Positions 1 through 62,504 of a DNA stretch of 64,000 bases are shown here, one piece after another. The stretch is taken from contig NZ_CALUYG010000006.1 of NCBI RefSeq assembly GCF_944324935.1, positions 1 through 64,000 of the forward strand. The letters are read 5' to 3'. Source of the DNA: an uncultured Desulfovibrio sp. (GTDB lineage: Bacteria; Desulfobacterota; Desulfovibrionia; Desulfovibrionales; Desulfovibrionaceae). Position 1 is the stretch's first letter. Every line of letters starts with the position of its first letter. The position numbers were made by a program, and so were the translations under genes. The notes beneath the pieces are model-generated. The model was not told where the DNA came from and did not search any database. It was given only the letters and a program-made list of their open reading frames with translations.

Positions 1-75
1 GGAGCCGTACCCACGCAGGAACAATCCCCTCAGATCGGGGACTCGTCCGCCAAGCAGCGCGAACAGTTCCGGGTA
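1..75 (-). CDS. Tail-fibre tip cassette, cut by the window edge (partial)
   Basis: This is the 5' end of a silent phage tail-collar tip cassette, read leftwards and leaving the window at base 1. It encodes the conserved start YPELFALLGG followed by VPDLRGLFLRGYG, as in the three complete cassettes to its right. All 75 bases are identical to bases 763-837. It has no start codon or promoter of its own, so it would be made only after being joined to a fixed N-terminal gene outside the window. Confidence 0.7.
58..75. repeat. Cassette boundary site 1
   Basis: An 18-bp sequence, CGCRAACAGTTCCGGGTA, is shared by all four cassettes exactly where similarity with the fourth copy (2275-2292) stops. It lies in the codons for YPELFA. 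It is the best candidate for the recombination crossover site, but part of its conservation could simply be protein-level. Confidence 0.5.
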
Positions 76-108
76 GGTTCGCGACGGGCCGGGAACGCCC
101 GATTTTCC

Positions 109-137
109 TTGAAAATCAAGGCAAAAACGGGTATACA
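109..137 (+). promoter_or_regulatory. Sigma70-type promoter of peptide gene 1
   Basis: TTGAAA (109-114) and TATACA (132-137) are separated by exactly 17 bp. The element sits about 65 bp upstream of the 23-codon gene at 204. The same spacing recurs at two equivalent places in the array. Confidence 0.6.
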
Positions 138-203
138 AAATTTGTACGGCTACCCTCTGGCCTGAGCGTCGGCACGGCGCAAACGGAGAAAGGAGGGCTT
201 GCC

Positions 204-275
204 ATGCGGAAGATCGTTTTCGCTCTATTCGTCGCAATGGCCCTTGTCCTGCTGCTGGCGGCTGACGTCAGATAG
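204..275 (+). CDS. 23-aa hydrophobic peptide, copy 1
   Basis: A tiny gene with a strong Shine-Dalgarno (AAAGGAGGG, 7-8 nt before ATG). It starts MRKIVFALFVAM and ends LLLAADVR, so it is one hydrophobic helix with basic residues at the N-terminus and Asp-Val-Arg at the end. It has its own promoter upstream and a hairpin immediately downstream, and runs opposite to the tail-tip cassettes. The length, charge pattern and structured transcript resemble type I toxin peptides (Ldr, Ibs, Fst type), but no antisense RNA is demonstrated. A small phage membrane peptide is the alternative. Confidence 0.55.
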   Translation: MRKIVFALFVAMALVLLLAADVR

Positions 276-280
276 CAGTT

Positions 281-312
281 GACCCCGGCCCATTCGCGGT
301 GGGTCGGGGTCG
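281..312 (+). other. Stem-loop after peptide gene 1
   Basis: GACCCCG and CGGGGTC arms with further GCC/GGT pairing form a hairpin five bases after the peptide stop codon. No T-run follows, so it may be an RNA stability or masking element rather than a terminator. Confidence 0.5.
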
Positions 313-369
313 TAAAATGTGAATCGCGTTTGGTAGCCGTACACGGGGGCGCAAACCGCGCCGTGCCAG

Positions 370-411
370 CCTCGGTTTCTGTTACCAGCAGGAACCGGGG
401 CTCCCTTTTTA
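370..411 (+). terminator. Rho-independent terminator, unit 1
   Basis: A stem CCTCGGTT / AACCGGGG (one G-T pair) is followed by CTCCCTTTTTAT. It would end the peptide transcript before it reaches the 3' end of cassette A. Confidence 0.6.
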
Positions 412-444
412 TATAAGTCCCTTCGCTGACCTTGGCAAGTCCCG

Positions 445-837
445 TCAGGGTCGCGCTCGGACAAGGTAGCGCACGGCTTGGTTCACGGGGCGATTTTCTT
501 CCGCTGTGGGGACAACGCGGGATATGTTAAGATCCCATCCTCCGTTTCCCTTGTTCGGAGAATTTCCATTGGAGTTACCAGAATTGTAATCACGCGAAAC
601 GGGTTCAAACGCGCCCGATCCTCCGTTTGCAAGCCAAAGCCAGACTCCAATGTTTCCTTGAATATTCCTTGTCGCATCTCCCTGCACCTGTCCCAACGCT
701 CCACTGCTATGAGTAGTGGACGTATAGCCCACGGTGGAGCCGTTGTTCTGTGCATGGTTCTGGGAGCCGTACCCACGCAGGAACAATCCCCTCAGATCGG
801 GGACTCGTCCGCCAAGCAGCGCGAACAGTTCCGGGTA
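445..837 (-). CDS. Tail-fibre tip cassette A (silent C-terminal segment)
   Basis: An open frame without its own start encodes a phage tail-collar C-terminus. It runs YPELFALLGG, VPDLRGLFLRGYGSQ, a variable middle rich in Gly, Asn and Ser (about residues 25-105), and the conserved end ENRPVNQAVRYLVRARP. Only the middle differs strongly from cassettes B and C, as expected for alternative receptor-binding tips. No start codon or ribosome site precedes it, so it is most simply a shufflon segment waiting to be fused to a fixed gene. The upstream frame stays open into the inter-cassette DNA, but that sequence is not tail-like. Confidence 0.7.
   Translation of the reverse strand, partial: YPELFALLGGRVPDLRGLFLRGYGSQNHAQNNGSTVGYTSTTHSSGALGQVQGDATRNIQGNIGVWLWLANGGSGAFEPVSRDYNSGNSNGNSPNKGNGGWDLNISRVVPTAEENRPVNQAVRYLVRARP
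820..837. repeat. Cassette boundary site 2
   Basis: Second copy of the 18-bp boundary sequence (version CGCGAACAGTTCCGGGTA), 762 bp from the first. The surrounding 75 bp (763-837) are identical to 1-75. Confidence 0.5.
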
Positions 838-870
838 AGTTCGCGACGGGCCAAGAATGCCCGATTTGCC

Positions 871-899
871 TTGAAAATCAAGGGAAATCAGGATATATA
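871..899 (+). promoter_or_regulatory. Sigma70-type promoter of peptide gene 2
   Basis: TTGAAA (871-876), a 17-bp spacer and TATATA (894-899). The -35 box is identical to the other two copies while the spacer has drifted, which suggests the promoter itself is selected. Confidence 0.6.
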
Positions 900-971
900 G
901 TTTTTGCACGGCTACCCTCCGAGCGTCGGCACGGCGCATGACTCCCGCAAGGGTAAAGGAGGGTATCAGCC

Positions 972-1043
972 ATGTCGCGTCTGTTTTTGATCGCGCTCTT
1001 CGCGCTGGTACTCGTCCTGCTTCTGGCGTCTGACGCCATATAG
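972..1043 (+). CDS. 23-aa hydrophobic peptide, copy 2
   Basis: The diverged copy of the tiny peptide gene. It begins MSRLFLIALFALVLV and ends LLLASDAI, with a Shine-Dalgarno AAAGGAGGG at 955-963. Compared with copies 1 and 3 almost every N-terminal codon has changed, but length (23 aa), N-terminal basic residue, hydrophobic core and the Ala-(Ala/Ser)-Asp tail are kept. That pattern argues for selection on a short membrane peptide rather than chance. Confidence 0.55.
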   Translation: MSRLFLIALFALVLVLLLASDAI

Positions 1044-1048
1044 CGGTT

Positions 1049-1081
1049 GACCCCGTATCAGGTGCGATCTGATACGGGGTC
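1049..1081 (+). other. Perfect 13-bp stem-loop after peptide gene 2
   Basis: GACCCCGTATCAG pairs perfectly with CTGATACGGGGTC across a 7-base loop. The primary sequence differs from the hairpins at 281 and 1801, yet the stem is preserved by compensating changes, so the structure itself seems to matter. Confidence 0.6.
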
Positions 1082-1138
1082 GAAAACGGTTAAAGCTCTG
1101 GTAGCCGTGTGGAAGGGGGCGCAAACCGCACCGTGCCT

Positions 1139-1180
1139 GCCCCGGTTTCTGTTGGTCGCAGGAGCCGGGGTTTCCTTTTT
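1139..1180 (+). terminator. Rho-independent terminator, unit 2
   Basis: CCCCGGTTTC pairs with GGAGCCGGGG and is followed by TTTCCTTTTT. It is equivalent in position to the terminators near 370 and 1890. Confidence 0.6.
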
Positions 1181-1214
1181 ATATAAGCCCCTTCGCCGCC
1201 CTTGACAAGTCCCG

Positions 1215-1595
1215 TCAGGGACGCGCCCGTACGAGGTATCGCACCGCCCAGTTCACAGGACGATTTTCGTTCGCCGTGGGAACTTGCCGCGAAATATCGA
1301 ATTTAACATAATAGCCAGACGGATCATTCTCTGCTCCGCCCGTATGAGAAAACCCTCCTTTGAAGAACACTCCGCTAGAATGTGCGCTTGCCTGATCATC
1401 TGACCCAAACGTACCAGTGATATTTCTGATTGCATCCCCCTGCACCTGTCCCAGCGCCCCACTGGCGTGCGTTGTGCTGGTGACGCCGACGGTGCTGCCG
1501 TTGTTCTGCACATGGCTCTGGGAGCCGTATCCCCGCAAGAAAAGTCCCCGCAGATCCGGCACCTTTCCACCCATAAGCGCAAACAGTTCCGGGTA
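1215..1595 (-). CDS. Tail-fibre tip cassette B (silent C-terminal segment)
   Basis: A second complete tail-collar tip segment: YPELFALMGGK, VPDLRGLFLRGYGSQ, a variable middle containing GALGQVQGDAIRNITG and a Gly/Ser-rich loop, then SRQVPTANENRPVN and VRYLVRARP. The constant ends match cassettes A and C while the centre is different. The frame runs open to base 1985 because of low stop frequency, but the extension reads across the peptide gene on the other strand and has no tail-like sequence, so the meaningful part starts at the boundary site. Confidence 0.7.
   Translation of the reverse strand, partial: YPELFALMGGKVPDLRGLFLRGYGSQSHVQNNGSTVGVTSTTHASGALGQVQGDAIRNITGTFGSDDQASAHSSGVFFKGGFSHTGGAENDPSGYYVKFDISRQVPTANENRPVNWAVRYLVRARP
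1578..1595. repeat. Cassette boundary site 3
   Basis: Third copy of the 18-bp boundary sequence (version CGCAAACAGTTCCGGGTA), 758 bp after copy 2. Upstream coding sequence is diverged from copies 1 and 2, yet this stretch is kept. Confidence 0.5.
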
Positions 1596-1628
1596 GGTTC
1601 GCAACGGGCCGTGAATGCCCGATTTTCC

Positions 1629-1657
1629 TTGAAAATCAAGGCAAAAACGGATATACA
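1629..1657 (+). promoter_or_regulatory. Sigma70-type promoter of peptide gene 3
   Basis: TTGAAA (1629-1634), 17 bp, TATACA (1652-1657), almost identical to the promoter at 109-137. Confidence 0.6.
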
Positions 1658-1723
1658 AAACTTGTACGGCTACCCTCTGGCCTGAGCGTCGGCACGGCGC
1701 AAACGGAGAAAGGAGGGCTTGCC

Positions 1724-1795
1724 ATGCGGAAGATCGTTTTCGCTCTATTCGTCGCAATGGCCCTTGTCCTGCTGCTGGCGTCTGACGCCAGATAG
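1724..1795 (+). CDS. 23-aa hydrophobic peptide, copy 3
   Basis: Nearly identical to copy 1, starting MRKIVFALFVAM and ending LLLASDAR, with the same Shine-Dalgarno at 1710-1717. Its end codons form a small hairpin (CTGGCG/CGCCAG), and a stem-loop follows the stop. Together the three copies show a repeated unit of promoter, peptide, stem-loop and terminator sitting between alternative tail-tip cassettes. Confidence 0.55.
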   Translation: MRKIVFALFVAMALVLLLASDAR

Positions 1796-1800
1796 CAGTT

Positions 1801-1832
1801 GACCCCGGCCCATATGCGGTGGGTCGGGGTCG
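1801..1832 (+). other. Stem-loop after peptide gene 3
   Basis: GACCCCG/CGGGGTC arms with extra GCCC/GGGT pairing, equivalent to the hairpins at 281 and 1049. Confidence 0.5.
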
Positions 1833-1889
1833 TAAAAAGATAGTCCGTCGGTGGTAGCCGTGCACGGGGGCGCAAACCGCGCCGTGCCA

Positions 1890-1931
1890 GCCCCGGTTTC
1901 TGTTGGTCGCAGGAACCGGGGTTCCCTTTTT
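1890..1931 (+). terminator. Rho-independent terminator, unit 3
   Basis: CCCCGGTTTC pairs with GGAACCGGGG, followed by TTCCCTTTTTAT. It separates the peptide unit from the 3' end of cassette C. Confidence 0.6.
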
Positions 1932-1965
1932 ATATATGTCCGTTCGCTGGACTTGGCAAGCCCCG

Positions 1966-2292
1966 TCAGGGCCGCGCTCGGACAAGGTAGCGCACGGCCT
2001 GATTCACGGGGCGATTTTCTTCTGCTGTTGGCACTGCACGAGAAAGATCAAACATGGTCGTATGCTTGGTGTAACCTCCGCTTCCAATGCCAAAATATCC
2101 GTCAACATAAGACCAAAATGGCCCTGTCGTTCCACCATTTGCCATTCCCATTGAAAAAACTGTTCCCGTGACGTTCCTGATGGCATCCCCTTGCTGTTCT
2201 CCCAGGCCTGCGGAATTTCCACCATGCCCTCTCAGGAACAGCCCCCTCAGATCGGGGACTCGTCCACCCAGCACCGCAAACAGTTCCGGGTA
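1966..2292 (-). CDS. Tail-fibre tip cassette C (silent C-terminal segment)
   Basis: The cassette closest to the recombinase. It encodes YPELFAVLGG, VPDLRGLFLRGHGGN, a distinct middle (GMANGGTTGPFWSYVDGYFG) and the constant end SRAVPTAEENRPVNQ plus VRYLVRARP. To the right of its boundary site the sequence is unlike that at the other three sites and leads straight into the recombinase gene. With no start codon it cannot be expressed here, so the fixed N-terminal gene must lie elsewhere, presumably left of the window. Confidence 0.7.
   Translation of the reverse strand, partial: YPELFAVLGGRVPDLRGLFLRGHGGNSAGLGEQQGDAIRNVTGTVFSMGMANGGTTGPFWSYVDGYFGIGSGGYTKHTTMFDLSRAVPTAEENRPVNQAVRYLVRARP
2275..2292. 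repeat. Cassette boundary site 4 (array end)
   Basis: Fourth copy of the 18-bp sequence. Similarity with the other copies ends exactly at its last base, which marks the right end of the cassette array 47 bp before the recombinase start. Confidence 0.5.
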
Positions 2293-2339
2293 TCCTGATG
2301 CCTCCGTCTGCCGACAAGGTAGAGAGGAGGAAATCGGAT

Positions 2340-3617
2340 ATGGAGATTCGGCATCAACCGTACCGGAAAAAAGGGCAATGGGTCGTCTACTGGCGGAGCG
2401 CATGGACGGGAGCACGGCATCATCAGGGGTTCCCGTCGGAAGCCGCCGCACGGGAGTTTGTGGATTCCCTGAACACAGTCCTTGCCAGGGAAAAGGAACT
2501 CATGGCCAGGCGTCGCCGCAGGGAGCGGGCATCATGCCCGCGCATGACGGTGGAAGAGCTTTTTCAGCGATACCTTTCCGTAGCGTTGTCCAATCGGACA
2601 ACGGCAAAGCAGGCGGCATACCATGCCGCGCATATCCTCACGCTTTATGGCTCGCGCCAGGCAACGCGCCTCACCAGCGCGGACATGCTCCAGTTCATGG
2701 AAATCCAGAAAGCGCGGGGCCTTTGCCAGGCGACGATCAACCGGCGCATCTCCATCCTGCGATCCGCGCTCAATTGGGCGGTGAAAATGGGCATCCTGCC
2801 GCAAAATCCCCTGTCCGGCCTGCGCCTGCCGCAGGCCCGCCCCCAGCGCATGGCTCCACCGACGCCGGAAGAACTGCGCCGCATCTTCCATGCGGCGGAA
2901 CCTCACGTCAGGCGTGTGATAGTCCTGGGAGCCTACTGCGGGCCGCGCATAGGCCCAAGCGAGCTTTTCCGGCTCCGCTGGAAGGATGTCGATCTGGAGA
3001 ACGGCATCATCCGCATGCCCAACGCCGCGAAGGGCGCGAAAGAGAGCGCCCGTGAGCTGCCGATCCGGGAATCCCTCCTGCCCCTGTTACGGCAATGGAT
3101 CGACGAAGACATGAGGAACGGGGCCGAGCACGTCGTCCACTGGCGGGGCCGTCCGGTACGCACCATTCATCGGTCATGGCATACGGCCTTGCGCCACGCG
3201 GGGATCCACCGTCGGATCACGCCGTACTCGCTGCGCCATGCCTATGCGACCTATTCCGTACAGGGCGGCGCGAAGCTCAAGCCGTTGGCCAAACTCATGG
3301 GGCATCGGAATGAACTCATGATCCTGCGGACATACCAGCATGTGCTGGACAAGGATGAACGGGAAGCCGTGGAAGCCATGCCCGATGTTCTGCGGCTGGG
3401 ACGACCGGCCAAGGCAGGTGGACGAGAAAAAGCCGTCAGACACCGGAGTCCGACGACTTTCCCCATTCCCGCACATTTGCGCTCAACGATGAGCTTGTGG
3501 GTTTCATTCTGCCTATCTCAAGGAAAGGCCGAGAAGAGCGCATCCAGTGGCAATACCGCCCAACGCAACGAGCGAACGAAAAACCCAGGCTCTTTTCCAC
3601 CACTTTTCCCCCTCTGA
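2340..3617 (+). CDS. Tyrosine recombinase, probable shufflon recombinase (Rci-like)
   Basis: A phage-integrase-family recombinase of 425 aa. The ATG at 2340 is chosen because GAGAGGAGG lies 9 bases upstream; an ATG at 2298 has no such site. A SAM-like N-terminal domain (about residues 70-165) precedes the catalytic domain. Visible catalytic residues are Arg in PRIGPSELFRL (about 203), Lys in the NAAKGAKES hairpin, YSLRH (about 296-300, Tyr in place of the first His), GHRN (about 321) and Tyr in RTYQHV (about 333). Position next to tandem tail-tip cassettes suggests it shuffles them. A role as the element's own integrase is the alternative. The last 60-70 residues are low complexity and overlap the 3' end of the convergent gene by 105 bp, so the C-terminus was probably altered at a junction. 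Confidence 0.85.
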   Translation: MEIRHQPYRKKGQWVVYWRSAWTGARHHQGFPSEAAAREFVDSLNTVLAREKELMARRRRRERASCPRMTVEELFQRYLSVALSNRTTAKQAAYHAAHILTLYGSRQATRLTSADMLQFMEIQKARGLCQATINRRISILRSALNWAVKMGILPQNPLSGLRLPQARPQRMAPPTPEELRRIFHAAEPHVRRVIVLGAYCGPRIGPSELFRLRWKDVDLENGIIRMPNAAKGAKESARELPIRESLLPLLRQWIDEDMRNGAEHVVHWRGRPVRTIHRSWHTALRHAGIHRRITPYSLRHAYATYSVQGGAKLKPLAKLMGHRNELMILRTYQHVLDKDEREAVEAMPDVLRLGRPAKAGGREKAVRHRSPTTFPIPAHLRSTMSLWVSFCLSQGKAEKSASSGNTAQRNERTKNPGSFPPLFPL

Positions 3618-5120: not shown

Positions 5121-5134
5121 ATTATTTTCCTTTT

Positions 5135-5458: not shown

Positions 5459-5460
5459 TG

Positions 5461-5580: not shown

Positions 5581-5600
5581 AGAATCCTCTCTTTTTATTT

Positions 5601-6040: not shown

Positions 6041-6379
6041 ATGAAAAAAGTGCCAACGCCAAACCGGATCAGGCAATATCACAAGAGGCGTACCGTACGC
6101 CTGAGTATCGAAGACGAGGAGCAAATCAAGCTTCAGGCCGAATGCGCGGGACTGTCTGTTGCGGAGTTCATGCGCCGCCGTGCCTTGGGAAAGAAAATCG
6201 TGCCGCACACGGAGCTTGTGATAGTTTATGAGCTCAGACGCATGGGAGGACTACTTAAGCACAATTTTGAAACCCTGAGAGCGGCGGATGCCCCCTTGCG
6301 TGTAATTGCGTTGCAGGAAAGAGTGTTGTCAAAAATTAATCAGACAATCGAGGTCATCGCAAAAAATTATGATTATTAA
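6041..6379 (+). CDS. mobC: Relaxosome accessory protein (MobC/NikA-like)
   Basis: A 112-aa protein with a ribbon-helix-helix start (RRTVRLSIEDEEQIKLQAECAG, SVAEFMRRRAL) and the helical second half usual for MobC/NikA proteins. GGAGGTG lies five bases before ATG 6041, which is preferred over an upstream ATG at 6029. It should bind oriT and recruit or help the relaxase. It overlaps the relaxase start by 11 bases, a sign of translational coupling. Confidence 0.8.
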   Translation: MKKVPTPNRIRQYHKRRTVRLSIEDEEQIKLQAECAGLSVAEFMRRRALGKKIVPHTELVIVYELRRMGGLLKHNFETLRAADAPLRVIALQERVLSKINQTIEVIAKNYDY

Positions 6380-8921
6380 AAAGGTTGAGTATGATGAAGA
6401 ACAGAAGAAGATGCAAAAGGCGAAGAGCGCCCGCAAGCAAATCAGTCATCTTGTTGACTACATCTGTGCGCCGCACAAGGTGAATATGGAGGAAAAGCTT
6501 GAGTACGCGGGATGCCGGAATCTGGAAGGAGACACGCACGCTTCCCGAAAGATGGAAATGGTCTCACTGGCTGAAAAGTCCGTCCGCAGCAAAATGCCTG
6601 TCTCCCACTGGATCATGTCCTGGGAGGAAGATGAGCAGCCGACGCCTGAACAGATAGATCGATGCGTTGACATCTTTCTTGAGGAAATGGGATTGCAAGG
6701 CCATCAGGTCATCTTTGGTGTGCACAGGAATACCAGGAATATACATCTGCACATCGCGGTTAACAGGATGAATCCCAAGACGTTGAAAGTCATCCAGCCT
6801 CACAAGGGGTTTGACAAGAACGCCGGGCATCGCCTGATGACGAAAATCGAACATGAGCAGGGATGGAAGCAAACCGGCATTTCCCGGTATGTCATGCTGG
6901 AAAATGGCGAGATAGTCAGAAGAAAGCGTGAGCCTGAAATCAAGCCAAGGCAAAAGGCTCTGGATTTTGAGCAGGCAACGGGTGAAAAATCCGCACAGCG
7001 CATTGCTCAGGAAAAAGGGCATGAGATCATAGCCAATGCCAAGAGCTGGGAAAAACTTCATGCGGCACTTGAAGATGTCGGACTTCGCTTTGAGAAAAAG
7101 CACCGTGGGGCTGTTATCTGGGTTGGCGACGTCGCTGTGAAGGCTTCCAATGTTGACAGGCAATTCAGCATGTCGAAGCTCTGCAAGCGATTGGGAGAAT
7201 TCCAACCGGGCGATTACGGAGAAATCGCCAAGCCACCGCCGGAGCCCGTATCCACGGTGAATCAGGAAGAATGGCAAGAGTATCAGGAAGCGAAAAAAGC
7301 GAACAGAGAGAAGAAAAAAAAGGATGAGGTACAACGGAATGCACAAAAAGAACTTGATGTATATGATGAACCGTCACAAAAACTCAAGGGATGGGCCGTG
7401 AAGGAAGAAAATGTGCCGAAGCTTGCATCCTTCATGGAGATAGTGAAAAAAACGGAGAAGACATATGGAAAGCGAAAACCTTGTACCTCGACCAACGATC
7501 ATGGCCTACGGCCTCTCTCCCAACACCGTTTGCGTGCATTGTCAGAATGCCGTCTGGCATATCCTGAAGGAAAAAAACAGAAAAATAAGTCTGCGGGTGT
7601 TTTGCCAAGTCATGCATGCGCTGATCGACGGGAACATCAAAGCCTGCGACGGCCTGATGGTCTCGCAAGACGAAGAAAGCGAGGAAAACGAAGAGGCTTA
7701 GCGACAAGGGCTATCCCGTCATTCAAGGATTGGCTTCTGCTCAAGGGGCTGAGGAAGCAGGCCGATCTCTGGCGATACCGCGCCGTCCTCGAAAGGGACG
7801 ACGCCACAAAACAGGAGTCACTTGCAGCAACGGAGGAGACCGTTGCCATGTGCAAGCAAGCTGAACTTTTCAAGCGATACGTTTATGCCGTGCAGGCGGA
7901 AAGGGTTCGCGTCACCTGCATGAGAATGTCCGAAGACGGAGAAAAGCGAGCCTTCATCCTCGACAAGCGAAATGGCGAAACGAGGGGCTTTTCCCCCAGG
8001 GAAGCTCTGGCCAGAATGGATGAAATGCGCCGCATCCAGTCGCGCGGTGAAAACATTTACTACACACCTCTCTCACACGATCGTCATCATATCCTGATCG
8101 ATGACATGTCCGCGCAGTCCGTCAACAAGCTGCGTGCCGACGGATTCCAGCCGGCAGTCATTCTGCTGAGTTCTCCGGGAAACTTCCAGTGCATCCTCAC
8201 CATCCCCAAGCTGGGGACGGAATTTGACCGTCAGGTCGGGAACAGGATCACCGAGCTGCTGAACAGGCGGTACGGCGACAAGAAACTTTCCGGCTGCATC
8301 CATCCGCACCGCGCTCCGGGCTTTGAGAATCGCAAGCCCAAGCACAGGAGGGAGGATGGCGGCTATCCCGAAGTCAAACTGATCGCGGCCACTCGCGTGG
8401 AATGTCCAAAGGCGCTCGCTCTTTCTCAGCAGCTCAACAGCAATCTGGAAGAGGAAGACAAAAAGGCAAGGGAACGCGCCGCCCGTGTCAGAACGGCTAC
8501 TTCATTCGTGGGCACTCCGGGAAGCCCCATTGCCGCCTATCACGCCCATTTCAACGACATCAGTCGCCACATGGCCGTCGAGGACGCTTCCCGCGTTGAT
8601 GCCATGATTGCCATACGCATGCGGGCCACTGGCCATTCCCAGGCGGACATAGCAGCGGCCATTGAGCAATGCGCTCCGGCCATCAGGAATGGAGAAAAAC
8701 GCAGGAACTGGCATGATTACGCCGAACGGACGGCGAACTACGCCTTCGGCTTCGCCGGGGACAGGGAACTGATCCAGCGGGAACGTCTCGTCCCCTTCTG
8801 GAGGCGTGTTGAGGGCATCCAGCCTCCGGTCATGACGCCACAGGATCAACAAAGACGGGAGTCCGCACCGGGGGAACAAGCTAAACCGTCTCCCGCCTCA
8901 CCACGGCCACGGCTCCGCTGA
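6369..8921 (+). CDS. mobA: Relaxase fused to RepB-type primase (MobA-like)
   Basis: An 850-aa protein. The N-terminal MOBP-type relaxase (about 1-320) shows a candidate catalytic Tyr in SHLVDYICAP and the metal-binding motif GVHRNTRNIHLHIAVN (about residue 117-133). A charged linker (about 320-500) follows, then a RepB-like primase domain (IDDMS, SSPGNFQCILTIPKL, about 560-720) and a helical C-terminus. This order matches RSF1010 MobA-RepB. It nicks oriT, pilots the strand and probably primes the complementary strand in the recipient. The linker reads Arg/Ser-rich because a second gene (7465-7701) uses another frame there. Confidence 0.85.
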   Translation: MIIKKVEYDEEQKKMQKAKSARKQISHLVDYICAPHKVNMEEKLEYAGCRNLEGDTHASRKMEMVSLAEKSVRSKMPVSHWIMSWEEDEQPTPEQIDRCVDIFLEEMGLQGHQVIFGVHRNTRNIHLHIAVNRMNPKTLKVIQPHKGFDKNAGHRLMTKIEHEQGWKQTGISRYVMLENGEIVRRKREPEIKPRQKALDFEQATGEKSAQRIAQEKGHEIIANAKSWEKLHAALEDVGLRFEKKHRGAVIWVGDVAVKASNVDRQFSMSKLCKRLGEFQPGDYGEIAKPPPEPVSTVNQEEWQEYQEAKKANREKKKKDEVQRNAQKELDVYDEPSQKLKGWAVKEENVPKLASFMEIVKKTEKTYGKRKPCTSTNDHGLRPLSQHRLRALSECRLAYPEGKKQKNKSAGVLPSHACADRREHQSLRRPDGLARRRKRGKRRGLATRAIPSFKDWLLLKGLRKQADLWRYRAVLERDDATKQESLAATEETVAMCKQAELFKRYVYAVQAERVRVTCMRMSEDGEKRAFILDKRNGETRGFSPREALARMDEMRRIQSRGENIYYTPLSHDRHHILIDDMSAQSVNKLRADGFQPAVILLSSPGNFQCILTIPKLGTEFDRQVGNRITELLNRRYGDKKLSGCIHPHRAPGFENRKPKHRREDGGYPEVKLIAATRVECPKALALSQQLNSNLEEEDKKARERAARVRTATSFVGTPGSPIAAYHAHFNDISRHMAVEDASRVDAMIAIRMRATGHSQADIAAAIEQCAPAIRNGEKRRNWHDYAERTANYAFGFAGDRELIQRERLVPFWRRVEGIQPPVMTPQDQQRRESAPGEQAKPSPASPRPRLR
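7465..7701 (+). CDS. CxxC protein encoded inside the relaxase gene
   Basis: A 78-aa gene in a different frame within the relaxase linker. CGGAG lies 7-8 bases before ATG. The protein (VCVHCQNAVWHI, LRVFCQVMHALI, ACDG, acidic tail) has balanced composition and four Cys residues, while the relaxase frame over the same bases is Arg/Ser-rich and low complexity. This is what overprinting looks like. RSF1010 likewise carries mobB out of frame inside mobA, although this protein is not MobB-like. It may bind a metal ion; function unknown. Confidence 0.6.
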   Translation: MESENLVPRPTIMAYGLSPNTVCVHCQNAVWHILKEKNRKISLRVFCQVMHALIDGNIKACDGLMVSQDEESEENEEA

Positions 8922-24202: not shown

Positions 24203-24937
24203 TCACAGCATGGGCTCATTCATGCGCCCGCGCACGATGATCCCCACGATGGCTTCCCGCGCCGCGGCATCGCCCCGCCTGGCCTTCCGGGCCAGCTCCA
24301 TCGCCTTTTCAAGCTGGGCCGCCGTGAAATCGCAGGACGCGAACCGAATCCCCTCCAGCACCCAGGTGGGCGTGGAGCCGATGACGCCCGCGCCCGCCAG
24401 CATGTCGCCCATGACGGTTTGCACGGACTGCTTTTCCAGCACGGCGCTGTACTTTTCCTGTGGAATGGCGGCTTCGGACAGCGCCCGCAGCAGCGCGGCC
24501 TCAAAAGGACGGGGAATGGCCAGCTCCGTTCTGGGGAGGATCTCCTCCCAGAACATGACGGCGGCGGACGCGGAAAAATGCTTCAGCGCCTCGAAGGCCA
24601 GCGCCTTCTTCAGCCCTTCGCCCCCGGCGGGCATGTGGCGTACCACGATGCGCCATTCCGGGTGCGTCTGTTGCGCCTGAAACGCTTCGTGCAGACCGCA
24701 GAAACGGCATTCCGGGCTGACCCAGACCTCGACGGCATTTCCCGCGTCTCCGGCGGGCTTCCCGTCAAGGCAGACACGCGCCGCGTCTCCGGCTGTGGCC
24801 CACGGGGCCGCCATGTCCTTGTCCAGGGTCGCCCGGACATCCCGCTCGACCAGGGTTCGTTCAGGCGTGCCCGCCCAGGCGGATCCCGTCACAAGGCACA
24901 GGGCAAGCGCCCAGAGGAGGGAAAGTCTACGCGGCAT
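24203..24937 (-). CDS. trbB: Periplasmic thioredoxin-fold protein (TrbB-like)
   Basis: A 244-aa protein with a signal peptide (MPRRLSLLWALALCLVTGSAWAG) and a thioredoxin-fold active site SPECRFCGL (CRFC) in a DsbC/DsbA-like context (VEVWVSPEC, GVIGSTPTWVLEG, the cis-Pro region). AAGGAGG lies six bases before ATG 24937. It likely oxidises or isomerises disulfides in transfer proteins and is the counterpart of IncI TrbB. It overlaps the end of trbC by 11 bases, matching the trbA-trbB-trbC cluster of R64 with the order changed. Confidence 0.75.
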   Translation of the reverse strand: MPRRLSLLWALALCLVTGSAWAGTPERTLVERDVRATLDKDMAAPWATAGDAARVCLDGKPAGDAGNAVEVWVSPECRFCGLHEAFQAQQTHPEWRIVVRHMPAGGEGLKKALAFEALKHFSASAAVMFWEEILPRTELAIPRPFEAALLRALSEAAIPQEKYSAVLEKQSVQTVMGDMLAGAGVIGSTPTWVLEGIRFASCDFTAAQLEKAMELARKARRGDAAAREAIVGIIVRGRMNEPML

Positions 24938-26753
24938 GGCCAGCCTCCTTTTTCGTCCCATCGGCGGCATTCTTCGTTTCCTCCTTCGGTTCCCGCAGCA
25001 GTTGCAGGAACTGCGGCACGCGAAGCTGCGCGTTTTTCAGGCTGGGGCTGGCATAGAACATATCGCCGCGCACGACCTGCCCTGAAAAGACAAAGTGCGC
25101 CTCACCCTCGATCTGCTCCTGCAAGTCCCGCAGTGCCACGCGATCCTCATTGTCCACGGCGGTATCCTGCGTGTCCAGATAGCCGGATCCGCGATCCTCC
25201 CGCACCCTGTAGCCGGTGCTGCGGATAACCGTCGTCTGCCCCGCCTGCCCGCGAATCAAATCCCACGTCTTTTCGGCGTCCTGCATCTTCATAAAGACTT
25301 TGATGCTCGTGTTGGCCACCATCTGCTGCGCTCCCTTCTGGTCAGCCTCAAAGATGCCAGCATAATCCTGGCTGGCCACAATGGCCGCGATGCCCAGACC
25401 GCGCCCCTGCGTCAACACGACCTCGAAGCCCGGCGTTACGATGGCGGCGTACTCGTCCACGATGCAGAGATACGGCCCGATGCCGATGGCATCCGTGGGC
25501 AGCGATTCCAGCACATCGGCGGCCCCACCCTCGATGTTCGCGCCAAGGCCCACTGAGCAAGCGTTGCGGATGGCGGACAGACTGATCTTGCCGAGACTGG
25601 CCAGTTCCGCCTGGGACTTCTCCAGCGAGGGCAAAAGCACCACGAGGATACGGCGCTGCATGATGGCATCGGCGAAGTCAACTTCTCCGTCTTCCGCGCC
25701 GTAGATATGGGAGTAGGTATCCGTCAGACTGGACATCGGCTTGCCGAAATAGCTCTGCGCGTAGCCGAACTGCTCCGCGAAAGACTGCGGCTGCTTGTCG
25801 TCCGGTGATTCGGCCAGCCAGCCGCAGGTGTTCAGGGCCGCCCTGATGGATGCTCTGGCGGCCTCCCCAAGTCGCTCGTCCCTTGCCAGCTTGACACATG
25901 CTTCCAGCGCGAGGTGGTCACGGATGGTGCTGGTGGAAAGCTTGATCTCTCCCTTGTCCCGCAGGTCAACGAGAGCATACATGATCCCGGAGATGAGCGC
26001 CTGTGCCTTGTCGGCAAAAATGGAGTTGGCCCCATCCGAAGCGGGCATGAGGGAGACAAGGAGCTGGGTCAGCGCCTCGGCGCTGCCTGTGGTGAACGGG
26101 TTGTTGGTGTTGGAAAGACGGCGCGGCGACTTGCCTTGCGCCTTGCCGCTCGTCCCGTAATTGAGCGTGCGGAAGTCGTCTTCCCGACCAAGGAATCGGG
26201 CCATCTGCCAAATTTGGAAATCCAGTTTCGGGCTGGCCTTGGGGTCAATATAGAAGAGCCCGCTGCCCGTGGCCAGCGAATTGTAGGCCAGGGAGACGAG
26301 TGTTTCCGTCTTGCCCGCGCCCGTCGTGCCGAACAGCAGCGTATGTGTCAGCACGTCCTTGGCCTTCAGCCAGAGCTCCTTCCTGTCTGGAAACTGGTTG
26401 CCCAGAAAGAAGATGCCTTCCGGCCTGGCATAGCCGCGCCTGCCCGGCAGAGGATCCCCCCCGTCCTCTCCCGGTTCGCCGATGGGCATGCGGAACGGCA
26501 GCCGGCTGCGCCCGAATTTCAGCCGGTACGCCGTGGGCAGGAAAAAGAGCACGCCCAGCAGAAACAGCGGCAAAACCAGCGCCGGAAAAACAAGGAGACA
26601 CACCCCCGCCCCCCCCATGCCGATGAGCTGGGCATTTTGCCCCTTGAGGACATCCAGCGCCTTTTCCAGCGGCGTGCGCACGTCACGGAGCAGTCGCTTG
26701 CGATCATACGCCTCGGCATCTTCTATGCCACGAACCTTTCGTTGTATATCCAT
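24927..26753 (-). CDS. trbC: Type IV coupling protein (TrbC/DotL-like)
   Basis: A 608-aa inner-membrane ATPase. Two membrane segments (about 44-75) precede the ATPase domain with Walker A GTTGAGKTE (about 146) and Walker B LCIVDEYA (about 431). It links the relaxosome to the secretion channel. Family: TrbC of IncI plasmids and IcmO/DotL. It is flanked by the DotM-like trbA and by trbB, the R64 neighbourhood. Upstream lies an AT-rich promoter-like gap. Confidence 0.9.
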   Translation of the reverse strand: MDIQRKVRGIEDAEAYDRKRLLRDVRTPLEKALDVLKGQNAQLIGMGGAGVCLLVFPALVLPLFLLGVLFFLPTAYRLKFGRSRLPFRMPIGEPGEDGGDPLPGRRGYARPEGIFFLGNQFPDRKELWLKAKDVLTHTLLFGTTGAGKTETLVSLAYNSLATGSGLFYIDPKASPKLDFQIWQMARFLGREDDFRTLNYGTSGKAQGKSPRRLSNTNNPFTTGSAEALTQLLVSLMPASDGANSIFADKAQALISGIMYALVDLRDKGEIKLSTSTIRDHLALEACVKLARDERLGEAARASIRAALNTCGWLAESPDDKQPQSFAEQFGYAQSYFGKPMSSLTDTYSHIYGAEDGEVDFADAIMQRRILVVLLPSLEKSQAELASLGKISLSAIRNACSVGLGANIEGGAADVLESLPTDAIGIGPYLCIVDEYAAIVTPGFEVVLTQGRGLGIAAIVASQDYAGIFEADQKGAQQMVANTSIKVFMKMQDAEKTWDLIRGQAGQTTVIRSTGYRVREDRGSGYLDTQDTAVDNEDRVALRDLQEQIEGEAHFVFSGQVVRGDMFYASPSLKNAQLRVPQFLQLLREPKEETKNAADGTKKEAGHAA

Positions 26754-26822: not shown

Positions 26823-28211
26823 TCAGCATGCGGCTAAGGCTTCTTCCCAAATTTGAAGCGTCCTGGTGGGGCTATCCCCAAGAAGACCGCTGTCGTCTTC
26901 AAAGAAAGGGCTTTCAACCCGCTCCCCACTGGAAGAATCCGCCTTTGCCGGGGAGACGGACGCGGCCTTTTCCTTGTCAGACTTGCCGTCCCCGTCGGGA
27001 CAGTACAGCCAGCCCAGCGCATCCAGCGCCGCTTCCAGACTGTAGGCCGCATCGGCCATATCCGGCTTCTCCAGCGCCTTGCCGTCCTTTTCCTTTTCCT
27101 CGGCCATGTAGTGTGCCCAGGGCGCGAAGGCTTCCACCCAGGCGGCCCGGCCCCCGCACTGATTGAGCGCATACCAGAGCGGACGATCTATGGGCCGCGT
27201 AAAGAGAAACTGCGGCCCGGCCAGCACGCCCTTTTTCCGGGCGCGGGTCAGCAGCGCCATGAACCACGGCAGGACATAGGCGCTGTGCCGCTTCAGGCAG
27301 GGTTCCTCAAGGATGCCCCTGTGCCGTGCGAGGGTATCCCCAATGCGCTCCCTGAAAGCCGGGTCTTCCAGAACGGTGCAGCGCGGTTCCGGATCTTTTT
27401 CCGCGCCTTCCGTTGGGGGCGTATCCGCTTCCGGCTCCTGGGTATAGGAGAGGGACATCTCGTCCAAGATGGCCACGGCTTCCTTCCGTTCCCCGGCGGC
27501 ATATGCTAGGAAGGCGGCGGCAAGCGCCTGCCGGAAGGGCGGCAGTTCCGCCACGCCCATGAATTTCGGGCCAAGCTGCTCGTGGAAGACGTTCATTGCC
27601 CTGACCCGGTCGAACCTTCCCTGTCCGTAGGCGGGCATGTCCGCCTCGCCAAGCCCGTTCCGCAGGGCTTGGTCCGGCGTGAACGCCTCATCCTTCTCAT
27701 CCTTCAGCAAGCCCTTCTCCAGAGCAAACTGGAGAGGGCTGCGGGCCATCCTCCACGGCCCCTCATCAAAGGACTTCGGATCAAGCAGGTACTTGCCTCG
27801 CCCCACCACAGGCGCAAGGCAGGGGAAGGATCGCACATTGTTTTCCAGCAGCGTCTCCATGTTGAACCGGCGCGTGAAGCTTTTCCCCCGGCCAGTCCAG
27901 GCCAGATAGAACAGCCCTCCCAGCATGGCGAAGAGTGGCCAGCGCAGCCATGAGCCCGCGTACTCCAGCGCGGCCACGACCTGCTTCCAGGTGAAGGCTT
28001 CCGGCGGCGTCTGAGTGAGATGCGTCAGAACCTTCTCGACATCCTCCGAAAGGATCCAGAACGGGCGCAATTCCCATTTCGCCACATCCAGCAGGAAGGC
28101 ATTGATGCTCCCGGCCTTTGCCGCATACAGCGCCGGAAGGCCCAGAAAAACGACCGCCAGCGCGATCAGCAAAAATACCGTGGAATCCGACGAGTTCTCC
28201 TGATTCACCAC
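26823..28211 (-). CDS. trbA: Coupling-complex protein (TrbA/DotM-like)
   Basis: A 462-aa membrane protein with an N-terminal segment (STVFLLIALAVVFLGLPAL), a second near residue 80-100 (WPLFAMLGGLFYLAW) and a large cytoplasmic domain (DEGPWRMARSPLQFALEKGLL, KRHSAYVLPWFMALLTRARKKG). These match the DotM/IcmP and TrbA family, which partners the DotL-type ATPase. The acidic C-terminus is Ser/Glu-rich. It overlaps the upstream transglycosylase by seven bases. Confidence 0.85.
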   Translation of the reverse strand: MVNQENSSDSTVFLLIALAVVFLGLPALYAAKAGSINAFLLDVAKWELRPFWILSEDVEKVLTHLTQTPPEAFTWKQVVAALEYAGSWLRWPLFAMLGGLFYLAWTGRGKSFTRRFNMETLLENNVRSFPCLAPVVGRGKYLLDPKSFDEGPWRMARSPLQFALEKGLLKDEKDEAFTPDQALRNGLGEADMPAYGQGRFDRVRAMNVFHEQLGPKFMGVAELPPFRQALAAAFLAYAAGERKEAVAILDEMSLSYTQEPEADTPPTEGAEKDPEPRCTVLEDPAFRERIGDTLARHRGILEEPCLKRHSAYVLPWFMALLTRARKKGVLAGPQFLFTRPIDRPLWYALNQCGGRAAWVEAFAPWAHYMAEEKEKDGKALEKPDMADAAYSLEAALDALGWLYCPDGDGKSDKEKAASVSPAKADSSSGERVESPFFEDDSGLLGDSPTRTLQIWEEALAAC

Positions 28212-44248: not shown

Positions 44249-47245
44249 GTTCTTCTGACTTTCTGTTTTATCTTTCGGTATATTCAGAAGTTCCCCGGCG
44301 ATTTCATGGATCACGTTGGTGAGCTCCTCGCCGGACTGGTCGGCGACAAGCCGCCTGCGCCGCTCCACTTCGGACTTGGCCGAGCCGCCGGGAAAGCGCC
44401 TCGCCAGACGGCGCAGGGCTTCCGAGGGCGGCAGATGCCGGTACAGCGCATTGCGGATGGTCACATCTTCCGTGGTCGTGGAGAAGGCCCAGAGCGATTG
44501 CGGGCCGATGGTCAGGGTGAGCGGGAGCTGAGAATTGCCCTTGCCCGTGCGGAATTGCGCGATGAGGTTAGCCCCGGCCGGGCCGGGCTTGCCCAGCCGC
44601 GACAGGGCGTGACGGCAGGCCCCGTTGAAGCCGAAACGGGCGCAGATGGCGTCACAGGCGGCTTCCGTGCCCCCGCCGAGGATGAGCACGCTGGTGGCCT
44701 GCTCGCAGATGATCTCCGGCATGTCGTCGATGGACTGCGAGTAGAGACCGAGGGAGAGGTTCCACTTGCGGGACTCGCGGGACATGGTAGTCATGTCCGC
44801 GAGGAGCTGCCCGGCCACGGACATGTTCCTGGTCACGCGGTGCGCCTCGTCGTAGCACAGCCTTTTGGGATCCTCGCGGATGGCCTCGATGCGCTCCGCG
44901 TGATAACGCCGGTACAGCGGCGGCATGAGCTTCACGTCGTCCGGCATGAGAAAGAAGCGGGAGCCGAGCACATGCCGGGCCAGCATGTACATGACGGCGG
45001 ACTGGCGGTCGGCTGTGGCCGTGCCGCGCGGAGCCACTTCATCGAGATCGAGGCTCACGACCTGGGCGTCGCCCAGCTCGAAGCGCGTAGGCCCCTTGAG
45101 GATGACGTATGCCTCGATGGCGTCCACGATGGAGCGCCGCACGTTGTTCCGCGTGGTCGCGTCGTAGAGCGCCTCGATGCCGGGATTCTGCGAGATCTGG
45201 GCGGAGATGTCGGCCAGCAGGGGCACGGCATAGCGCTGGGCCAGCCATGCCTCATGGATATGGTCATGCTCAAAAAGGAAATCCACCACTTCCCACCAGG
45301 TCGTGCGGCTGTCCATGCCCATACCTTCCCGCACGAGCAGCTCGTGCAATTCCGGCAGCGTATTGGCCTGATAGGGGCGCGGGCGGCCCTGGCGTTCGTC
45401 CGCCAGCGTGTCATAGGCCAGATCGATGGCGCGGCCCAGCATCTCCGGCACGCCGTCGGCAGGCGCGTCCGCGTTGTGCGGCGTGGCCAGCAGGGAAAGG
45501 AAGTTGACCAGGAAGGTCTTGTGCGACGGCAGCGGCCTGCGCAGGCCAAGCGGAGTATCGAAGGGATTGATGGTATGGGCTTCGGTCATGCGCAGGCGGT
45601 GATAGGCCGCGAGATGCTTCTTTCTTTCGGGCAGGTTGGCCCGCAGCAGCGTGATCAGACCGGAGGACGACGGCCCCACGTCCACGATGGACACCCAGGG
45701 CAGGCGGGTAAGGCCAGCCTGCATCACAAATGCGAAATTCATGGCATTGAGGAAAACGGACTTGCCCGCGCCCATCGGCGCGACGCCCAGATCGATCCAG
45801 GCGGCCTGTTCCGACGAGTTGGGCGCGAAGGGAAAGACCTTGCCGTCCCGTGTACGCAGCAGCAGGCTGCCGTCCTTCCAGGGGGACGCGGGACGCAGGG
45901 GGAGCATACCAAGCGCGGCGGGCAACGGGGCCGCCGTCACCGGGGCCGGAGACGTGGGCATCATGGCCGGCACAGTGGCCGTGAAGCCCAGCAGGGGATC
46001 GCCAATGGCTTCCGAGACATCAGCGGTTCCCCAGCCTTGTACGGCCTTGGCCAGCTCGGCCATGCGCCGCCGGAGCAGTTCATGGGCCGAATCTTCCGGG
46101 CCGTCGGCCCAGGTGCAGAGGCAGATGGAAAAGCGGACACAGCACGTCCCTTCCAGATCCATCGCCCGCAAATCGTCCACGGCCCGGTTGAAACGCCTGT
46201 TGTCCGAGGACGTGAAGGCAAGGATGGAGGCCAGCAGGGGCTTGAGGCCGAGATGCAGGCCGCCGTCGGCCAGGAGGAAGGAGATACGGTACGGAAGCCG
46301 ACCGCCCTCTCGGTACGCGATGGTGCGGAAGACCTCCTGAAAGGGCTTGGGCGTCTGGGGCATGAGGGTCATGATCAACGGCCCGAAGACGCGATCCCCG
46401 ATGCGCAGGGCGCTGCGGGAAAGCATCTTGCCTTCACGCGGCCAGAGCTGGTGTCGGAAATCGGGATAGACCACCCGCTGGAGCCTGTCCCGCTCCGGCG
46501 CGTCAGGATCGGGAAAGCGGAGCGGCAGGGGATCGCCGGGGATGAGTGCCCGCCACTGACTGTCCGTGAAGGCGGGATCGATGCAGAGACGGATGTCCCG
46601 CAGCGCCTCATGGGGAGAAAGCTCATGCAGGAGGAGATCGGCCTGCCGGAAGGCGTCCAGTACGCCGGACAGAAAGCCGTTGTGCGCGTCGCGCAGCCCG
46701 GCCAGGGCGGCACAGACGTTCTGGCAGCCCGGAAGATTCGGCACGGACGACATGGCCAGCCGACGTTCGGCGACGGCTGTCTTGCGCAAGTTGTTCTCCA
46801 GCGCGTTGGGCCGCGTCCAGATGACGAGGAAGCACGACTCACTCGCGCAGTGGGTACGCAGGGCCTCGCTCCAGTCGTCAAGCAGAGCGTCGATGTGCAG
46901 GCCGAGACCGCGAGCGGTCAGCCGCGAGGGGCGCAGCAGCTCGTCGATGCGCCGTGCGCTCCCGTCGGGATCGTACTCGAACACGCACTGGATGACGTGC
47001 CCCGGACGGGAAAGGGAGGACTGGAGTTTTTCGGTCAGCACGCTGACGATGTGGTTGTATTCGGCCACGCCGACGTGCTTGAGCGAGCCTTCCAGACGCA
47101 GGACGCTGATCAGGCTGCCGTCGTCGGCCACAAGGGCGTTGCCGTCCACGGTTTCCAGACGGCAGTAGCCGCTGACGGGAGCGTGAAGGAGGTCGGAGAT
47201 GATTTGCATCCCCCGGTCTATGCCGGCGGCAAGACGATCAAGCAT
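44246..47245 (-). CDS. traU: TraU/DotO-like VirB4-type ATPase
   Basis: A 999-aa ATPase. Walker A is APMGAGKSVFLN (about 490) and Walker B LCYDEAHRVTR (about 798). The N-terminal 450 residues match the IcmB/DotO and TraU layout. It powers assembly or substrate transfer at the cytoplasmic face of the channel. It shares start/stop bases with traM upstream. Confidence 0.9.
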   Translation of the reverse strand: MLDRLAAGIDRGMQIISDLLHAPVSGYCRLETVDGNALVADDGSLISVLRLEGSLKHVGVAEYNHIVSVLTEKLQSSLSRPGHVIQCVFEYDPDGSARRIDELLRPSRLTARGLGLHIDALLDDWSEALRTHCASESCFLVIWTRPNALENNLRKTAVAERRLAMSSVPNLPGCQNVCAALAGLRDAHNGFLSGVLDAFRQADLLLHELSPHEALRDIRLCIDPAFTDSQWRALIPGDPLPLRFPDPDAPERDRLQRVVYPDFRHQLWPREGKMLSRSALRIGDRVFGPLIMTLMPQTPKPFQEVFRTIAYREGGRLPYRISFLLADGGLHLGLKPLLASILAFTSSDNRRFNRAVDDLRAMDLEGTCCVRFSICLCTWADGPEDSAHELLRRRMAELAKAVQGWGTADVSEAIGDPLLGFTATVPAMMPTSPAPVTAAPLPAALGMLPLRPASPWKDGSLLLRTRDGKVFPFAPNSSEQAAWIDLGVAPMGAGKSVFLNAMNFAFVMQAGLTRLPWVSIVDVGPSSSGLITLLRANLPERKKHLAAYHRLRMTEAHTINPFDTPLGLRRPLPSHKTFLVNFLSLLATPHNADAPADGVPEMLGRAIDLAYDTLADERQGRPRPYQANTLPELHELLVREGMGMDSRTTWWEVVDFLFEHDHIHEAWLAQRYAVPLLADISAQISQNPGIEALYDATTRNNVRRSIVDAIEAYVILKGPTRFELGDAQVVSLDLDEVAPRGTATADRQSAVMYMLARHVLGSRFFLMPDDVKLMPPLYRRYHAERIEAIREDPKRLCYDEAHRVTRNMSVAGQLLADMTTMSRESRKWNLSLGLYSQSIDDMPEIICEQATSVLILGGGTEAACDAICARFGFNGACRHALSRLGKPGPAGANLIAQFRTGKGNSQLPLTLTIGPQSLWAFSTTTEDVTIRNALYRHLPPSEALRRLARRFPGGSAKSEVERRRRLVADQSGEELTNVIHEIAGELLNIPKDKTESQKN

Positions 47246-47943
47246 CAGGCGTCCCTCTTGAGGATGATCTGTTCGATGACCACGCCGCGCGGCGTGGCAA
47301 CGGTGGATGCGCGACGCACGAGCACCGCGGCGAGGAGCTTCTGGGTATTTTCAACACCCTGGCTCGACTCATACGAGATGAGCAGCGGAAACTCGATCTT
47401 CCAGCTAGCCTTGCCGTCGATTTGACCGCTGGCCACGATGACCGGGGCCTGCGTCACCACGGCGGATGCCGAAAGACGTTTGTTACGGATCATGTCCAGG
47501 ATGCCGGAAGTGGCCAGCGCGTCCATAAAGCTTTTGAAAGACGCTTCGGAGAAGCTGGCGCGGGCGCGTGTCAGCTTTTCCCGCCATTGCAGGAAGTCCA
47601 GGGACATGGTTCCGCAGACGGTTTCCGTGACCCAGTTGGTGAGTCCCTGCTGGGTCAGGACGGGCTGGGAAAGCGGCACGAGCGGCGCGAGGCGCAAGTC
47701 CGGCGTGGCCGCGAAGTACTGGGGCGTGGGCCGGAACCAGAGCAGGCCGCCGATGACGACCAGGCAGAGACACAGCCCGGCCCCCTGCGCGAGGCAGAGC
47801 TTGAGGATGCGCCGGTACTGCGTCCGATACCAGTCCAATCCGTTGTAGACGGCGGAGCCGTCATACAGCGGGACATGCCCTTCCTCCGGGGTTTCCGGCG
47901 TGGGTTCCGATGGCTTCTTTCTGGCAAAGGGATTGAAAGACAT
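47245..47943 (-). CDS. traM: TraM/DotI-like inner membrane protein
   Basis: A 232-aa protein with a cytoplasmic N-terminus, one membrane segment (AGLCLCLVVIGGLLWF) and a periplasmic domain (PQYFAATPDLRLAPLVPLSQ, FSEASFKSFMDALATSG, WKIEFPLLISYES). This is the IcmL/DotI/TraM pattern. AGGAGAG precedes ATG. Part of the inner-membrane complex with traU next to it. Confidence 0.85.
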   Translation of the reverse strand: MSFNPFARKKPSEPTPETPEEGHVPLYDGSAVYNGLDWYRTQYRRILKLCLAQGAGLCLCLVVIGGLLWFRPTPQYFAATPDLRLAPLVPLSQPVLTQQGLTNWVTETVCGTMSLDFLQWREKLTRARASFSEASFKSFMDALATSGILDMIRNKRLSASAVVTQAPVIVASGQIDGKASWKIEFPLLISYESSQGVENTQKLLAAVLVRRASTVATPRGVVIEQIILKRDA

Positions 47944-52717: not shown

Positions 52718-52727
52718 CGATCTCCTC

Positions 52728-53852: not shown

Positions 53853-54283
53853 GATGAAACCTCCATGACGCTGACGAGATTCCCCTCCGGAATGAAGGAC
53901 GGAATGGGGACGGGATGCGGAGCGAGCGCGGGAACAAGCCTCCCGCCGCTGGCAAGCCCCACGGCAAAGCTCCCCTGAAAAAATTTTCGCACGGCTTCCC
54001 CCTCTTCCGGTGTGGCTTCTCCGAAGACATAGCAGCACCCGTCATGGACACGGGCCTTCCATGTACGCAACATGCGCCAGCTTTCCGGGAGGGAGAGAGA
54101 CGAAAGCGGAATATCCCCGCTGAACCCCTTGTGCGCCTGGACATACAGGAAGACGGCGTTGCGGTAGATCGCGTAGTTCATCGCCAGCGCCTTGTGCGAG
54201 GTCTCCTGGATGTCGTTGTCCACAGGGGCCTTGAGCAGGGCCATGACCCCCAGCAGGACGGCAAGCACGGCAAGGATCTTCAT
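53849..54283 (-). CDS. pilM: PilM-like pilus protein
   Basis: A 144-aa protein starting MKILAVLAVLLGVMALLKAP (one membrane segment), then NYAIYRNAVFLYVQAHKGFS, LPESWRMLRTWKARVHDGCC and a Pro-rich end. Length and these motifs fit PilM of R64 (145 aa). In R64 pilM precedes pilN; here it lies between pilS and pilV, so the gene has moved. Confidence 0.7.
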   Translation of the reverse strand: MKILAVLAVLLGVMALLKAPVDNDIQETSHKALAMNYAIYRNAVFLYVQAHKGFSGDIPLSSLSLPESWRMLRTWKARVHDGCCYVFGEATPEEGEAVRKFFQGSFAVGLASGGRLVPALAPHPVPIPSFIPEGNLVSVMEVSS

Positions 54284-57498: not shown

Positions 57499-57501
57499 GT
57501 G

Positions 57502-59554: not shown

Positions 59555-59556
59555 GG

Positions 59557-61908: not shown

Positions 61909-61915
61909 GCCCGCT

Positions 61916-62495: not shown

Positions 62496-62504
62496 GGTGC
62501 GCCC

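Follow-up and report, generated by a model that had tools for sequence, protein, structure and literature searches.

In the portions of two reports considered here (PMC9045228, PMC11852207), the gene switched by the shufflons of the conjugative plasmids TP114 and R64 is pilV, and its variants alter the affinity for recipient cells; in TP114, this class of adhesin sets the recipient specificity (PMC9045228). The same portions describe a constant gene with alternative C-terminal cassettes in an I-type conjugative setting, an array that ends in a tyrosine recombinase gene, and asymmetric repeated sites, conserved on one side and variable on the left (PMC11852207). A similar arrangement is found in an uncultured Desulfovibrio sp., at the start of the 64,000-nucleotide stretch analyzed here (hereafter, the window), position 1 of which is the first base of contig C6 (NZ_CALUYG010000006.1) in an assembly of 89 contigs and 2.71 Mb. 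The system of the window appears to work like the R64 shufflon, though not on PilV: what it would switch is a separate protein with a tail-collar domain, encoded beside DotH/DotG-like genes, and the PilV gene of the window has no site. It is quite likely that this R64-like shufflon acts on a stand-alone, predicted exported adhesin resembling gp12 of phage T4, which would decide which recipient cell is gripped.

Unlike the constant collar protein of this system (below, the fixed protein), the one classical PilV scanned, that of an IncK2/Z plasmid, contains PF04917 and no collar domain. The recombinase of that plasmid, the one compared, is just 24% identical to that of the window. More similar features are seen in the plasmid pDsulf-L2-2 of Nitratidesulfovibrio vulgaris (NZ_CP116247), which carries a near-identical site, TACCCGGAGCTGTCCGC, on both strands (4 + 1), along with a collar-like repeat, similar tips, and a recombinase 44.5% identical to that of the window. 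There, however, the tip is the C terminus of PilV itself, which combines PF04917 with a collar match just under the Pfam cut-off, whereas the window has the collar protein as a protein of its own; since this related-genus plasmid has the module on PilV, the two arrangements are directly comparable. Two PilV proteins from Enterobacter plasmids also match the fixed protein, and the one that was scanned contains both PF04917 and Collar. The Rin shufflon of Bifidobacterium prophages, by the part of its description used here (PMC6109161), likewise has a tyrosine recombinase, a constant N terminus, and variable C termini headed by a short asymmetric repeat, but its target is a tail protein of the phage and its location a prophage, while the setting of the window is conjugative. 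No shufflon acting on a collar-domain protein, and none of any kind in Desulfovibrio, was found in the titles and abstract openings of the open-licence papers listed, which for shufflons in general were 40 of 148.

The sites of the array are copies of the 18-mer TACCCGGAACTGTTYGCG at 58-75, 820-837, 1578-1595, and 2275-2292, all on the minus strand and spaced 762, 758, and 697 bp apart. The first-pass annotation of this DNA had listed the same four copies, the same spacings, and the same orientation of all cassettes, and all three were confirmed. It had also described a constant start and a constant end in four cassettes. The start is shared, with slight variation (ALLGG, ALMGG, AVLGG), and the end, ENRPVN...VRYLVRARP, is seen in three cassettes only, because the edge of the window truncates cassette 1. 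The components of the system are as follows, with the lengths of the three complete cassettes counted from the site in amino acids (aa) and open reading frames abbreviated as ORFs.

1..75, minus strand: cassette 1 (no more than its first 25 codons), site at 58-75; runs past the contig end
76..444, no strand assigned: inter-cassette spacer 1, with a 23-aa hydrophobic ORF at 204-275 (plus strand)
445..837, minus strand: cassette 2, 130 aa, site at 820-837; PHROGs tail collar fiber, 6.4e-21
838..1214, no strand assigned: inter-cassette spacer 2, with a 23-aa ORF at 972-1043 (plus strand)
1215..1595, minus strand: cassette 3, 126 aa, site at 1578-1595; PHROGs tail collar fiber
1596..1965, no strand assigned: inter-cassette spacer 3, with a 23-aa ORF at 1724-1795 (plus strand)
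1966..2292, minus strand: cassette 4, 108 aa, site at 2275-2292, adjoining the recombinase gene; PHROGs tail collar fiber
2298..3617, plus strand: tyrosine recombinase with a likely start at 2340, the predicted invertase of the shufflon; PF00589, 3.1e-21
C49:19126-19458: fixed gene, the last of contig C49 and open at the contig end, with a site on the plus strand at 19384-19401; PF07484 (Collar), 6.1e-13

A search of the entire 2.71-Mb assembly for the 18-mer, allowing up to 2 mismatches, found it in 5 places, all exact: the four copies of the window and the one in the fixed gene on C49 (a reversed-pattern control gave 1 match). A 17-base form of the site, found in 4 copies in the window, occurred at a mean of 0.00 in 100 shuffles. 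The base that differs between the cassette sites is C in cassettes 1 and 2 and T in cassettes 3 and 4. The site is asymmetric like those of the R64 type (PMC11852207), in that the first 14 bases counted from its first base agree in 5 of 5 copies, while agreement to the left is mixed, from 2 to 5 of 5. The recombinase gene adjoins the array, as had been claimed, and is open; its start is likely at 2340 because the alignment of a relative begins at codon 15 of the ORF, and its product presumably acts on these sites. Each spacer also contains, antisense to the cassettes, a ribosome-binding-site-like GGAGG along with its short hydrophobic ORF, plus a terminator-like hairpin and another hairpin, the stem of which varies on either side from copy to copy (both by eye). 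The 23-aa ORF, which perhaps encodes a leader peptide or a type I toxin-like product, is also present in the arrays L038 and L071, and one of the spacers is matched in 26 of the 79 genomes of the genus, including its own.

The first-pass annotation had expected a tail-fiber gene ending in the 18-bp site to the left of the window. The search of the assembly did find a gene with the site, at the end of the 19,458-bp contig C49, the last 77 bp of which are the reverse complement of window positions 1-77. Its location to the left and in the opposite orientation, so that its site opposes those of the window, follows only if the two contigs join as the shared 77 bp suggest; stopping at these 77 bp is how a short-read assembly would be expected to behave at a repeat. 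The description as a phage tail-fiber gene did not hold. The protein, which would be exported and adhesive, has a signal-peptide-like start (by eye); PF07484 was the only domain found on it, with no Shufflon_N (PF04917). The gene directly follows a DotH/IcmK-like gene (2.2e-54) and a TrbI/DotG-like gene. NCBIfam scores of these upstream genes for DotG and TraO were below the respective cut-offs, and an NCBIfam scan of the fixed gene, one cassette, and PilV matched no family. Further upstream on C49, at 15712-17112, a second, integrase-like tyrosine recombinase is encoded. The recombinase of the window is predicted to invert the DNA between the site inside the predicted exported collar-domain gene, on a contig that probably adjoins the window, and the same site heading the opposing unfused cassettes. 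Each inversion would join one of several phage-tail-fiber-like tips in frame to the collar gene, and the joined tip would likely decide which recipient cell the conjugative element grips.

Relatives of the fixed protein are encoded in 24 of the 79 genomes of the genus (E up to 1e-6) and in 53 of the 288 genomes of the family (E up to 1e-10), counting the genome of the window in both cases. Among the 38 named loci, those with more than 50% identity over most of the protein come from Desulfovibrio, Desulfovibrionaceae, or Mailhella. Two loci from single-contig genomes (L038 and L040) have the fixed gene, a tip, cassettes on both strands, and a recombinase together; the recombinases are 55-61% identical to that of the window (61% over 353 aa for L038). 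By the strict site pattern, sites are found on both strands in 9 of 11 array loci, a hand-chosen set that includes the window (L048, L049, L051, and L052 are outside that count). The two exceptions are the window itself and L047, which has no strict match but does have repeats on both strands. A Mailhella contig (L075) combines collar repeats with a window-like recombinase (45%), a window-like coupling protein, and PilV.

Inversions of the expected kind could be recognized by comparing closely related elements. Up to the site, L052 and L038 are collinear for 8,469 bp at 99.2% identity, and from there 1,154 bp of L052 match the opposite strand of L038 at 95%. One boundary of the apparent inversion is the fixed site, at 8396 on the reverse complement of L038, and the other is a cassette site (9871). 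L052 has a fused tip that is 94% identical (340 nt, no gaps) to that silent cassette of L038, versus 35-38% to its three other cassettes. Similar inverted matches relate L039 to L038 and L044 to L045; one tip, at 98.7% nucleotide identity between the latter two loci, is fused in L044 but unfused in L045. The shufflon architecture claimed from the window alone is thus borne out by the fixed gene with the same site and by the arrays and inversions of the relatives, in addition to the cassettes and the recombinase.

Exchange of tips is also evident at the protein level. Three protein searches found 894, 835, and 769 proteins, with the best 120 of each listed. In a set of 207 protein files, the motif was present in 140, 91 fused to a collar N terminus and 49 not, and the 67 without it were dropped. 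Ten of the 18 multi-member tip clusters (85% identity, single linkage) had both fused and unfused members. All three complete cassettes of the window have relatives fused to a collar gene elsewhere: cassette 2 is 94% identical to the natural fused protein P0034, cassette 3 is 98% identical to P0016, and cassette 4 shares a cluster (≥85%) with five collar-fused proteins, such as P0005 of Desulfovibrio piger. One fixed N terminus (36 proteins linked at 95%) carries up to 17 tip clusters, an upper figure because several of the fused "tips" are on short metagenome contigs and possibly frameshifted. Protein P0130 has the tip of cassette 3 at 100% identity preceded by a different sequence (MEVSG) and may represent the same cassette at another array position.

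Several other loci were noted in these searches. L041 (G007:C1:1139000-1158500) shows cassette-like repeats in both orientations over ∼12 kb and has no fixed gene in the stretch. In L168 (G025:C56), positions 2934-5725 hold six copies of the spacer and remnants of cassette ends. Neither a collar gene nor a recombinase nor any strict site was found in this stretch, which has the look of an array that has decayed. A contig classed as viral (IMGVR_UViG_2562617147_000003; L096/L152) has a collar gene, cassettes, and a relaxase and seems to be a conjugative element, not a phage.

The tips match the tail collar fiber families of PHROGs, with the natural fused protein P0034 assigned to phrog_523 at 1.1e-35. 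A profile built from 57 natural fused proteins matched a short tail fiber (9cuy) at 1.3e-28 and T4 gp12 (1ocy) at 3.5e-8, in both cases spanning the collar and the tip. The earlier suggestion that the tips resemble the receptor-binding ends of phage tail fibers is supported by these matches. Like gp12, the fused protein would combine a collar with a receptor-binding tip, although gp12 is a phage structural protein and is not switched. T4 gp12 binds lipopolysaccharide, and perhaps the collar protein does so by analogy.

An I-type conjugation system occupies much of the window, with the following main genes.

6306..8921, plus strand: relaxase with a RepB primase domain; PF03432, 3.6e-26, and PF16793, 1.3e-54
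24927..26753, minus strand: coupling-protein-like ATPase; PF12696, 1.7e-10
26823..28211, minus strand: DotM-like protein; PF23127, 4.2e-40
47245..47943, minus strand: DotI/IcmL-like protein; PF11393, 6.4e-43
52728..54038, minus strand: PilV-like ORF (Shufflon_N); PF04917, 3.1e-24
54288..63866, minus strand: type IV pilus operon with PilS, T2SSF, T2SSE, PilO-like, secretin, and TcpQ domains

Other genes of the window code for a ParA-like protein, a TraI-like protein of the type IV secretion system, T2SSE, a topoisomerase, and an ArdC-like protein. The PilV-like ORF has no collar domain and no array, and the scan of the window for sites gave none near it. The genes of C6 past ∼66.9 kb (flagellin, trpGD-like) look chromosomal, and so does an FdhE-like gene on C49. 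The element is probably integrative and conjugative, of the I type; no tRNA genes were found on the end stretches of C49 and C6. A long inverted repeat at 5813-5874, ahead of the relaxase gene, could be part of the origin of transfer; just before it are three near-identical repeats with GACACTCGGTG (by eye), and an Rfam search of window positions 1-6000 gave only microRNA-family matches to the hairpin at ∼5813-5874, below the gathering scores. The window also encodes a protein of 1985 aa in which Eco57I-like methylase and helicase domains were found (13647-19604, minus strand) and, directly after PilV, a C5 cytosine methylase (51668-52774, minus strand), both possible restriction or defense cargo.

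A number of observations weigh against the proposed switch or narrow what can be said of it. Because the stretch that would join C49 to the window, and should carry the expressed tip and the remainder of cassette 1, is absent from the assembly, the linkage of the two contigs has to be deduced from their shared end. Attachment repeats were not found at the ends of the element, the longest shared word being an unconvincing 14 bp. The site-ended inversions come from the three pairs of relatives and not from the clone of the window, and the fused and unfused forms of the tips come from different strains and assemblies; they therefore speak for exchange over time rather than for switching within a clone. 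In 2 of the 10 mixed clusters, the cassettes of the window are the sole unfused members. The fixed site of L052 departs from the strict pattern, with TTTCC instead of TACCC, so that the left end of this pattern is not strict, and the repeats of L049 are all in one orientation. A window-like recombinase (48-60% identity) accompanies only 5 of 20 fixed-gene stretches (L005, L038-L040, and L042-L057; L041, with its cassettes and no fixed gene, was left out). The recombinase of the window, which is 25% identical to the integrase-like recombinase of C49, appears by sequence no nearer to the recombinase beside pilV of the IncK2/Z plasmid than to an integrase. The structural model of the tip is of modest confidence (mean pLDDT 67, pTM 0.47), and Foldseek searches with it gave no match at E ≤0.001, the best being 1ocy at 7.1e-3; the sequence profile is the better evidence for the apparent likeness to the T4 short tail fiber.

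Inversion systems that swap the C-terminal part of tail-fiber-type proteins are well known in phages Mu and P1, and a prophage or tailocin switch of receptor-binding proteins, of that kind or like Rin, would account for the collar and tip matches, for the label "phage tail protein" that some relatives carry in their source records, and for the 151 phage records that match the fixed protein, all at less than 60% identity. Gin and Cin are serine recombinases that invert one segment, whereas the recombinase of the window is of the tyrosine type (PF00589). Apart from the tips, no phage structural family was found among the window proteins scanned (with Pfam for the scanned set and with PHROGs for 10 further ORFs and the recombinase). 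A scan of viral contigs gave 30 stretches with the site, of which just one had two copies, the relaxase-bearing contig mentioned above. The phage or tailocin setting proposed in the first-pass annotation was therefore rejected in view of the relaxase, coupling-protein-like, DotM, DotI, and pilus genes with PilV; along with the signal-peptide-like start of the fixed protein and the position of its gene after the DotH/DotG-like genes, this makes a phage switch highly improbable. The array could instead be dead, a set of static leftover cassettes rarely exchanged by homologous recombination through the 75-bp coding repeat. All four window sites do face the same way, and decayed cassette repeats without sites exist, as in L168. 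This explanation nevertheless appears improbable, given the open recombinase gene, the conservation of the site up to a sharp left edge, and the 99.2%-identical elements that differ by an inversion ending at sites.

That the shufflon is real and the collar protein serves another role, such as attachment to the gut surface, surface exclusion, or phage blocking, is rather unlikely but deserves more weight. The role of the protein is drawn from homology and gene context only, and 6 of the 20 fixed-gene stretches (L040, L042, L044, L050, L051, and L053, two of them shorter than 6 kb) have no conjugation marker, i.e., no relative of a relaxase, a coupling protein, TrbI/DotG/DotH, or PilV. A third single-contig genome (G008) retains two fixed genes (L042 and L043) with one tip each and no array. 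On the other side, conjugation markers are found in the remaining 14 stretches, and the same tips end the PilV of the related plasmid pDsulf-L2-2, a member of the adhesin class that, in the cited portion of the TP114 report, sets recipient specificity (PMC9045228).

Shufflons of conjugative plasmids are known as switches of PilV; here, the switch appears to act on a separate, predicted exported protein with a phage-tail-fiber tip, in an element that retains a PilV without sites. For conjugative elements of Desulfovibrio and Mailhella more generally, it seems somewhat more plausible than the contrary that a shufflon no longer acting on PilV shuffles a stand-alone, Sec-exported adhesin resembling the T4-type short tail fiber, with a module found on both Dot/Icm-like and TrbI/coupling-protein backbones of conjugation, diversifying borrowed phage host-recognition tips for the choice of recipients. 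If the proposed switch is right, a gene labeled "phage tail protein" in one of these genomes can turn out to encode an adhesin for conjugation, a swap of tips would alter the set of bacteria within the grip of the element when it transfers genes, and these sulfate reducers would follow a testable rule in the choice of their partners.

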